A stretch of 64,000 bases of DNA from a virus, in IMG/VR virus record IMGVR_UViG_3300035703_000044, positions 29,765 to 93,764 of that record. The stretch is one strand, 5' to 3'. Positions within the stretch are counted from its first letter, which is position 1; each line of letters opens with the position of its first letter. The position numbers and the translations under genes are program-made. Positions 29,685 through 45,974 of this stretch are shown piece after piece. The notes below the pieces were generated by a model that was given only the letters and a program-made list of their open reading frames with translations, did no database searches and had not been told where the DNA came from.

Positions 29685-29756
29685 CCTCTGGTAGTCTATT
29701 GGTAAGGACACCCCGACAAGGGAGTTGGAAATTGGGTTCGATTCCCAGACAGAGGT
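29685..29756 (+). tRNA. Degenerate tRNA-like element (anticodon uncertain)
   Basis: The acceptor (CCTCTG / CAGAGG), D arm (GTCT / GGAC) and T arm (TTGGG-TTCGATT-CCCAG) are recognisable and in the correct order. The middle does not fold into a 5-bp stem with a 7-base loop and U33. The best pairing is CCC / GGG around CGACAA, which would suggest GAC (Val), but a Val tRNA (UAC) lies nearby. It may be a decaying tRNA gene, a tRNA with a non-standard anticodon arm, or a sequence error. Confidence 0.5.
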
Positions 29757-29760
29757 ACAT

Positions 29761-29836
29761 TCCCCTATAGCTCAATTGGCAGAGCACGGAGCTGTTAACT
29801 CTGGGGTTGTTAGTTCGAGTCTAACTGGGGGAGCCA
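29761..29836 (+). tRNA. tRNA-Asn (GUU)
   Basis: Acceptor TCCCCTA / TGGGGGA. The anticodon loop is CTGTTAA, anticodon GTT. A CCA is encoded after the discriminator G, unlike most of its neighbours. Confidence 0.93.
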
Positions 29837-44421: not shown

Positions 44422-44445
44422 GGAGGGATAAAACCCTCCTTTTTT
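44422..44445 (+). terminator. Terminator after peroxiredoxin
   Basis: GGAGGG-ATAAAA-CCCTCC and six T. A near-late promoter CATAAATA (44446-44453) follows. Confidence 0.85.
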
Positions 44446-44476
44446 CATAAATATATCGCAGGGTTTGGATGCAATA

Positions 44477-45175
44477 ATGTTCATAGATCTTCATAACTTT
44501 TTCAAGTTTTACGACGAGAAAAATCCAAAGCACGTTGCTGCAGTTGAACAACTTGAAAAAGATTTGCAATTGAAGTCTCAGGATCTGTTGGAAGATGAAT
44601 CAAATTGGGTAAGAATCTATAGAACTAAACAAGACAAACCTCAATCATCAATTTTACCCGTTCCTTTCTATCCACAAACAGACAACTATAGGGATGCAAA
44701 TAGAACTTGTAACTCTTCTGCTTGTGCAATGTGCCTTGAGTATTTCAAACCTGGTACACTAAAAGGACCTAAGGGCGATGACGCCTATGTACAAAAAGTT
44801 TTCTCAATCGGTGACACAACTGATCACTTGGTTCAGACCAAGGTTCTTGCGTCATACGGCATTAAATCCAGTTTTTCCTACAGTCTTACTTTTGCTGATC
44901 TTGATAGAGAGCTTGCCTCTGGTAGACCTGTTGTTATTGGTATTCTTCATCGCGGTCCTCTATCTAACCCCACAGGAGGGCACATGGTAGTAGTGATCGG
45001 CAAAACTCCATCTGGCGATTATGTTGTCAATGATCCATATGGTTCATTGAATGATGGGTACACTGGTTCAGTTAATAATGGAAAGGGTGCTGTTTATAAG
45101 AGAAGTGATCTATCTCGCAGATGGGTGCCAAAAGGAAATGATGGTTGGGGTAGAATCTTTGATGCAAAAAAGTAG
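44477..45175 (+). CDS. C39-like cysteine peptidase (endolysin N-terminal module)
   Basis: A 232-residue peptidase_C39_2-type domain. The catalytic Cys is C78 in NRTCNSSACAMC, His is H169 in GGHMVVVIG, and Asp is D186 in NDPYG. The zero frame stops at TAG 45173-45175 right after a run of six A. A GH24 lysozyme is encoded immediately downstream in the -1 frame with no start codon of its own, so this gene probably yields both a short peptidase and a frameshifted two-domain endolysin. Confidence 0.82.
   Translation: MFIDLHNFFKFYDEKNPKHVAAVEQLEKDLQLKSQDLLEDESNWVRIYRTKQDKPQSSILPVPFYPQTDNYRDANRTCNSSACAMCLEYFKPGTLKGPKGDDAYVQKVFSIGDTTDHLVQTKVLASYGIKSSFSYSLTFADLDRELASGRPVVIGILHRGPLSNPTGGHMVVVIGKTPSGDYVVNDPYGSLNDGYTGSVNNGKGAVYKRSDLSRRWVPKGNDGWGRIFDAKK
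45166..45172 (+). promoter_or_regulatory. Putative -1 frameshift site (A AAA AAG)
   Basis: The canonical slippery heptamer A AAA AAG is in the correct zero-frame phase (codons AAA AAG, then TAG). A 7-base spacer separates it from a 9-bp hairpin at 45180-45207. A -1 slip bypasses the TAG and enters the lysozyme frame. Confidence 0.78.
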
Positions 45176-45651
45176 AAACGCCAACTAATAATATTTCTTT
45201 AGTTGGCATTGATTTGATAAAAGAGTTTGAAGGGTGTCATCTAAATGCTTATCCTGACCCATTGACTGGCAAAGAACCAATAACTATTGGTTGGGGAAGT
45301 ACTAAGGATTTCAATGGACAACCATTTAGACTTGGTAAAAGAATTACTCAAGAGTATGCTGATAAACTTTTGATTTTTGATATCGAACAAAGATTTATTC
45401 CTTCTCTACAAAAAATACCTTATTGGGGTGAGATGAATGACAACCAAAGAGGGGCTTTACTTTCTTTTGCTTATAATCTTGGTGCAGGTTTTTATGGTGG
45501 TAGCAACTTCAATACTATTACGAGGGTCTTGAAGAACAAGGAATGGGACAAAGTTCCTGATGCTCTTTATCTTTATCGTAATCCAGGAACTAAAGTAGAA
45601 ACAGGTCTTGCTCGTAGACGGAAGGCAGAAGGAAAACTTTGGTCTTCTTAA
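45172..45651 (+). CDS. GH24 lysozyme (endolysin C-terminal module, read after -1 frameshift)
   Basis: The -1 frame from 45172 encodes 159 residues. The lysozyme domain starts at NISLVGIDLIKEFEG, matching the GH24 N-terminus. The catalytic Glu is in FEG and an Asp is nine residues later (NAYPD), as in T4 lysozyme, with a late GLARRRKAEGKLW. No ATG/GTG/TTG occurs before the TTG at 45214, which lies inside the conserved domain. Frameshifting from the peptidase is the best explanation. The fusion would be about 391 residues. Confidence 0.78.
   Translation, partial: VETPTNNISLVGIDLIKEFEGCHLNAYPDPLTGKEPITIGWGSTKDFNGQPFRLGKRITQEYADKLLIFDIEQRFIPSLQKIPYWGEMNDNQRGALLSFAYNLGAGFYGGSNFNTITRVLKNKEWDKVPDALYLYRNPGTKVETGLARRRKAEGKLWSS
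45180..45207 (+). other. Stem-loop stimulating the putative -1 frameshift
   Basis: GCCAACTAA (45180-45188) pairs perfectly with TTAGTTGGC (45199-45207) around a 10-base loop. No U tract follows, so it is not a terminator. Confidence 0.78.
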
Positions 45652-45974
45652 TCTTCTACTCTTGTTCTTAATGCAATTACTGTAGTTAGAATAGTCAATA
45701 AAGTTTCAAATCCTCTTCTTTCAGATTCTTTGCAATCTAAAGGGGGAGGATTTTTTAGTCCACCTAAAAGGTTTGCATGATTTGTTGTACCTGGAATCAT
45801 AAAGTTGCAAGCAATAAAGTTTAATCCAACAAACCCAATTATAGATGCACAGATAATAAAGATCAGTTTATTCAATAAAGAACCGTGTTTTTTTCCTACC
45901 GCGTTTTGCTGGTCTTCGGATGAATCTGATGACTTCTGTTGGTTGTCTTTTTGGTTGTGGTCTTCTTCCTTCAT
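45648..45974 (-). CDS. Small membrane protein on minus strand
   Basis: A 108-residue protein. The N-terminal 35 residues are charged and Gln/Ser-rich. A transmembrane segment (LIFIICASIIGFVGLNFIA) lies at about residues 37-55. The C-terminus (GTTNHANLLGGLKNPPPLDCKESERRGFETLLTILTTV) is distinctive. A GAGGGA RBS precedes the ATG. Its stop shares TTAA with the lysozyme stop (convergent). A holin or lysis-regulator role is possible from position. Confidence 0.7.
   Translation of the reverse strand: MKEEDHNQKDNQQKSSDSSEDQQNAVGKKHGSLLNKLIFIICASIIGFVGLNFIACNFMIPGTTNHANLLGGLKNPPPLDCKESERRGFETLLTILTTVIALRTRVED

Follow-up and report, generated by a model that had tools for sequence, protein, structure and literature searches.

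Evidence for programmed -1 ribosomal frameshifting in a peptidase-muramidase lysin gene of cyanobacterial viruses

We analyzed a window of 64,000 nucleotides from a virus (IMG/VR record IMGVR_UViG_3300035703_000044, positions 29,765 to 93,764), in which a gene for a C39-like peptidase is followed by a GH24 muramidase in the -1 frame. Very likely (probability about 0.93), this phage lysin gene uses -1 programmed ribosomal frameshifting (PRF), by which lysin chains carrying the GH24 domain and chains lacking it would be made at a set ratio. The frameshift signal, its conservation, its covariation, and the selection on the GH24 coding frame are shown by comparison with relatives. That both proteins are made, how efficient the shift is, and what it serves (limiting GH24, or the stoichiometry of a lysin complex) are inferred, as there are no protein or reporter data. 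It is likely that many marine and freshwater cyanobacterial viruses make a lysin with or without a second domain via such slippage, the products again being inferred.

Reading frames and slip site of the window locus

The peptidase ORF ends in GCA AAA AAG TAG (45164-45175), with six A at 45166-45171 and a G at 45172 (Table 1). The -1 frame remains open until a stop ending at 45651 and would add 159 aa to the peptidase after the shift, giving a predicted fusion (44477-45651) of 232 + 159 = 391 aa with the predicted junction peptide FDAKKVETPTNN. The original prediction had proposed an in-phase A AAA AAG before the TAG and product sizes of 232 and 391 aa, and both the heptamer and the calculated sizes held. 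Only one GH24 and one C39 were detected in the fragmentary genome to which the window belongs, both of them at this locus.

The window peptidase is C39-like, as the family profile (Pfam Peptidase_C39_2, E 2.8e-13), a Q-C-H-D set (Q67, C78, H169, and D186, invariant across 48 relatives), and a papain-like fold agree. The fold is that of an AlphaFold model (pLDDT 83.5), which resembles papain-like/C39 structures (3erv and 6mpz among them); searching PDB sequences with a profile of the peptidase gave no match, and the relation came from fold comparison instead. The -1-frame product matches Pfam Phage_lysozyme (E 3.5e-23) and is related to solved GH24 lysozymes. We take the Glu of its EFEG motif to be the GH24 catalytic Glu, by analogy to T4 lysozyme.

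In the proposed mechanism, most ribosomes translating the N-domain-C39 peptidase would stop at the TAG at 45173, while a fraction, aided by the hairpin 7 nt downstream, would slip one base back on A AAA AAG and go on in the GH24 frame to yield a peptidase-muramidase fusion. The outcome would be two products with a common N-terminus in a fixed ratio. In E. coli, a lone tRNA-Lys with anticodon UUU is a condition for the slipperiness of A AAA AAG. A sampled marine host-type genome, Synechococcus RCC307, matches this condition, having a single tRNA-Lys (anticodon UUU) among its 41 tRNA genes; the true host of the contig is unidentified.

Table 1. Features of the lysin locus and its upstream flank (window coordinates)
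Feature	Position	Strand	Basis or remark
Terminator-like stem-loop before the lysin gene, ending the upstream peroxiredoxin unit	44422..44439	+	Found by pattern alone, with 1 hit against 1.3 expected
ATAAATA, like a T4-type late promoter core	44447..44453	+	Lead only
Zero-frame ORF: N-terminal helical domain (~residues 1-50) and C39-like peptidase	44477..45175	+	232 aa from ATG 44477
Slippery heptamer A AAA AAG in zero-frame phase (P-site AAA, A-site AAG)	45166..45172	+	Sequence; same junction kept in relatives
-1 frame: linker and complete GH24 muramidase	45172..45651	+	Pfam, third-codon-position substitutions, solved GH24 lysozymes
Zero-frame stop TAG, abutting the heptamer	45173..45175	+	Sequence
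Putative stimulatory hairpin, arms 45180-45188 / 45199-45207	45180..45207	+	Folding; conserved and covarying in relatives
TTG, sole early conventional start in the GH24 frame	45214..45216	+	No SD-like sequence; position not conserved

Conservation of the junction in relatives

Seven IMG/VR scans produced several hundred loci, and removal of identical 180-nt junctions left 207 GH24 loci. These were divided into class P (zero-frame stop at or just past an in-phase heptamer, with GH24 in the -1 frame; 107 non-identical loci), class I (N-domain and GH24 sharing one frame, C39 present or absent; 64 loci), class F (no such signal, GH24 being either in frame or provided with its own start; 28 loci), class O (-1 overlap without a heptamer; 7 loci, all with an ATG/GTG overlapping the stop), and class S (1 locus). 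Four heptamers occupy the same position in class P, namely A AAA AAG (84 loci, including 15 in which an ATG/GTG overlaps the stop), G GGA AAG (14), C CCA AAG (7), and T TTT TTT (2), and the stop codon (TAG, TAA, or TGA) lies at the same place or one codon on. An in-phase heptamer is present in 93 of 96 unique -1 overlaps. Comparison of the heptamer and hairpin with those of other cyanophages had been suggested as a check; both were found, the heptamer in 107 of the 114 -1 overlaps of the larger set. Moreover, 115 of 153 C39 genes with an adjacent GH24 end in a heptamer, compared to 1 of 121 C39 genes without an adjacent GH24. Class P loci share kinship, and these counts are therefore not independent events; nucleotide clustering reduces them to 90 clusters at 90% identity and 51 at 80%.

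The junction is also present in isolates. At this site phage S-PM2 reads GCAAAAAAGTAA and has its GH24 in the -1 frame; the 200 nt around the slip site are identical in its separately deposited deletion mutant. S-SRM01 has kept the heptamer and has an ATG overlapping the stop, and the heptamer of S-CAM7 is T TTT TTT. The signal is absent in some relatives, which are plain in-frame fusions (L090-L098), separate genes, or GH24-first loci, and a few others (L061, L065, and L076) have seven A and are read through in frame. On the GH24 tree, junction states switch often (34 changes, 8 being the minimum), and few branches are well supported. No such junction was seen in the more distant C39 lysins of MA01, S-CBP2, PSS2, DSL-LC07, and S-CREM2, which are mostly in-frame or joined to other partner domains.

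Other arrangements were observed in the survey. L004 and L072 have a swapped domain order, with GH24 followed by N-domain-C39 in a single frame. L062, L074, L082, and their relatives have GH24 genes with another N-terminal domain (LPHQxDAWxFLQ...); these genes lack a heptamer, and their ATG start overlaps the stop of C39. In L604 (S-CBP4), an unannotated C39 lysin ORF at about 1200-2150 is broken over two frames, possibly by a sequencing error.

A conserved and covarying hairpin downstream of the heptamer

The perfect 9-bp stem-loop that had been predicted 7 nt past the heptamer held. It encloses a 10-nt loop, and its stem lengthens to 45177-45188 / 45199-45210 if one mismatch is allowed. Within the window alone, however, the fold is unremarkable (101 nt, z = -1.19, with 20 of 200 shuffles equally stable), and thus the case for the hairpin rests on the relatives, in which the spacer between heptamer and hairpin is 2-8 nt.

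For each locus, the best stem starting 1-10 nt past the heptamer was compared with dinucleotide shuffles at the 5% level. Stems exceeded the shuffles in 61 of 63 A AAA AAG loci without an overlapping start and, where one of the remaining heptamers is used, in 10/10, 4/5, and 2/2 loci, compared to merely 4 of 13 loci with an overlapping start codon and to 8/93 and 4/93 control windows placed 150 nt away. The 90% clusters gave a similar result (56/58, 12/12, 6/7, and 2/2 for the A, G, C, and T heptamers, respectively; 6/11 with an overlapping start). The mean MFE z-score was -3.05 at the junction and -0.65 in the controls.

Measured against the codons for EFEG, the hairpin arms are found in registers set apart by whole codons, and the arms show many compensatory changes. 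Within one register, pairing is 96%, compared to 30-52% when the arms are slid, five pairs are altered on both sides, and none of 500 shuffles reaches the covariation score. This set had been preselected for its hairpin register, which favors pairing but not the compensatory pattern. The downstream hairpin is thus conserved with covariation, and its 7-nt distance in the window meets the spacing criterion of about 5-9 nt. An Rfam search returned no match of interest.

Initiation and coding selection in the GH24 frame

Of the A AAA AAG loci that lack an overlapping start (69), 38 have no ATG/GTG/TTG in the GH24 frame until past the catalytic Glu, and just 2 combine a start ahead of the domain with an SD-like sequence. 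In the window, the TTG at 45214 sits within the conserved beginning of the domain (D-L-IKEFEG), 5' of the catalytic Glu, so that the earlier claim that GH24 cannot be fully translated alone was slightly too strong. The -1 GH24 frame is uninterrupted in all 107 class P loci. Substitutions in it amount to 0.25, 0.14, and 0.47 at the three codon positions, and this excess at the third position indicates that the frame is under selection. The annotated S-PM2 'putative lysin' and S-CAM7 'lysin' start at late codons beyond the catalytic Glu and are C-terminal fragments lacking it.

Relatives with reversed polarity

All 64 class I loci have A AAA AAG upstream of GH24, followed precisely one codon on by a stop in the -1 frame. 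In their N-domain-GH24 genes, the codon following KK ends in T without exception; serine in the next codon is AGT in 35 of 35 cases, although elsewhere in the same ORFs the TCN:AGY ratio is 424:120. The T-ending codon and the AGT serines thereby keep the -1 stop one codon past the heptamer, the position that it has in E. coli dnaX. The predicted short product of class I would be the N-domain alone (~51 aa). Stems exceeded shuffles in only 7 of 35 class I clusters, with a mean z of -0.8 compared to -0.94 in controls, and strong downstream stems were seen in individual loci (L167/L187 and L153). Since structure is not above background, frameshifting is less certain here than in class P. From comparison, we infer that class I is likely a dnaX-like case of reversed polarity without clear extra RNA structure.

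The N-domain in the predicted short products

The N-domain is the constant part in every predicted short product of the family, these being N-C39, N alone (the reversed class), and N plus a CPHCGK segment (the G GGA AAG class). Where the heptamer is G GGA AAG, and also in the N-domain-GH24 loci of class I, the C39 peptidase is encoded separately, by a gene immediately 5' that carries an N-domain copy of its own. Members of the G GGA AAG group (L146, L150, L160, L171, and relatives) have a predicted short product whose last segment, CPHCGK(S/P)LGK, is coded immediately 5' of the slip site and resembles half a zinc ribbon.

Neighborhood of the lysin gene

ATAAATA was rejected as a family promoter, its count in the window not being above chance. 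A convergent ORF of 108 aa (45648-45974, - strand) with two hydrophobic segments has its end adjoining the lysin stop and contains the motif ...FVGxNFxxCNFMxPGTxNxAN...KNPPPLDCKESERRGYETLLTILTTVIALRT... It lies beside 39 class P lysins with A AAA AAG and only 2 of class I. It lacks a PHROG and any significant Pfam match, and is a possible candidate for a holin-like protein. Elsewhere in the window, a tRNA-like gene (29685-29756) within a tRNA cluster has an undefined two-letter anticodon 'ca'.

Alternative explanations

The simplest objection is a sequencing or assembly error, the real gene being an in-frame fusion with seven A. Homopolymers are prone to miscalls, and L061, L065, and L076 really have seven A and are read in frame. 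This one-base undercall, raised in the original prediction as the main alternative, is refuted generally by the isolates and all but excluded: the break is common to 107 non-identical loci, S-PM2 and its deletion mutant agree over 200 nt, three other heptamers (G GGA AAG, C CCA AAG, and T TTT TTT) are used, the stops differ, and the hairpin covaries. Transcriptional slippage, in which RNA polymerase would add an A so that some mRNA encodes the fusion, is known in Thermus dnaX (PMC5009743), and it can be said in its favor that the site has an A6 or T8 run and that a one-base insertion would code alike. It is nevertheless very unlikely. Bacterial transcriptional slippage involves runs of 9 A or T (review, PMC5009743), a length that the A6 of the window does not reach; no long run is present where the heptamer is G GGA AAG or C CCA AAG; and the X XXY YYZ phase with a hairpin at 2-8 nt suits ribosomes, not polymerase.

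Termination-reinitiation or an independent start would make GH24 a separate protein begun near the C39 stop. This occurs in part of the family, which includes seven ATGA-type overlaps without a heptamer and 15 heptamer loci with an overlapping ATG/GTG, and the window itself has the TTG at 45214. But most class P loci have no start before the domain, such starts have an SD-like sequence in only 2 of 69 loci, and reinitiation leaves heptamer and hairpin unexplained; for the window locus we consider it very unlikely. Homologs whose two domains are encoded by separate genes, each having a normal start, which the original prediction had named as refuting it, do exist in part of the family, but PRF is not thereby refuted, because loci with overlapping starts mostly lack the hairpin and many N-domain-GH24 genes have their own heptamer and -1 stop. 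Finally, GH24 could be a pseudogene decaying after a frameshift mutation, with the peptidase alone functional, as might be suggested by the annotation of just a C-terminal fragment as lysin in S-PM2 and S-CAM7. The third-position excess contradicts decay, the frame is open in all 107 loci, and heptamer and hairpin are conserved, so that this alternative too can be practically ruled out. The -1 frameshifting reading is therefore supported, and comparison makes its case far stronger than the window alone could, adding four heptamer types, a covarying hairpin, reversed polarity, and a common N-terminal domain.

Comparison with known systems

PRF itself is well known in other genes, and for a phage endolysin no report was located in the literature searched, a lysin reported by Shearman 1994 being a possible but unchecked precedent. 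PRFect (PMC10885494) counts lysins among frameshift-reported genes, citing that work; the claim is taken only from PMC10885494, and the lysin is from a different host and unrelated as far as known. Bacterial dnaX (tau/gamma) is similar in its A AAA AAG, downstream hairpin, and two products with a common N-terminus, and it occurs with both polarities in different bacteria (PMC5009743), as the cyanophage family does. Unlike dnaX, the cyanophage gene encodes a lysin rather than a polymerase subunit, the shift in the window would yield the long product, the family has four heptamers, and no conserved upstream SD-like stimulator has been shown; upstream GGGGAAG/GGGGTAG, inspected by eye, follow from conserved GWGR codons. 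The lambda G/GT type is likewise a phage -1 PRF by which a minority of the chains is extended with a C-terminal domain, and its G GGA AAG is present in one lysin subgroup, but lambda makes a tail assembly chaperone, whereas the lysin would gain an enzymatic muramidase domain.

The two-polypeptide endolysins CTP1L, LysIME-EF1, and phi2638A also make two isoforms from one gene, one without a catalytic domain. There, an internal start gives an N-truncated isoform with a common C-terminus, whereas PRF in the cyanophage lysin would give a C-truncated isoform with a common N-terminus, in cyanobacterial hosts. The window lysin fails the criterion for internal-start endolysins (an in-frame start with an RBS and a common stop), as its predicted isoforms would differ C-terminally by frame. 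For the MS2 lysis gene, a reading-frame change has been proposed in lysis-protein expression (Kastelein 1982, cited in PMC10885494), but MS2 is an RNA phage in which the frameshift brings about a new start on an overlapping gene and no fused lysin results.

Implications for cyanophage lysis

Given PRF, its purpose might be a heteromeric lysin of short and long chains assembled via the N-domain, rather than a mere reduction of muramidase. The N-domain recurs in all predicted short products, and two-isoform lysins that multimerize are known, though these are made by internal starts (PMC9430671, PMC4777826). On the other hand, there are no interaction data, the N-domain might just target or stabilize, and a plain dosage role explains the data equally well, so we lean slightly away from the heteromer. 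A bolder reading, in which Kyanoviridae have a heteromeric lysin with a frameshift-set ratio and evolution swaps heptamers and stop frame while keeping two products, is likewise tentative, the balance tipping a little against it.

Frameshifting would explain the odd reference annotations of the S-PM2 and S-CAM7 lysins. The family also offers a natural experiment, its members differing in heptamer (four types) and polarity, and in whether GH24 is fused in frame, begins at an overlapping start, or has a gene of its own. Should both proteins be made, endolysins would join the short list of phage genes under conserved ribosomal frameshifting, and cyanophage lysis may need peptidase and muramidase in a fixed proportion.
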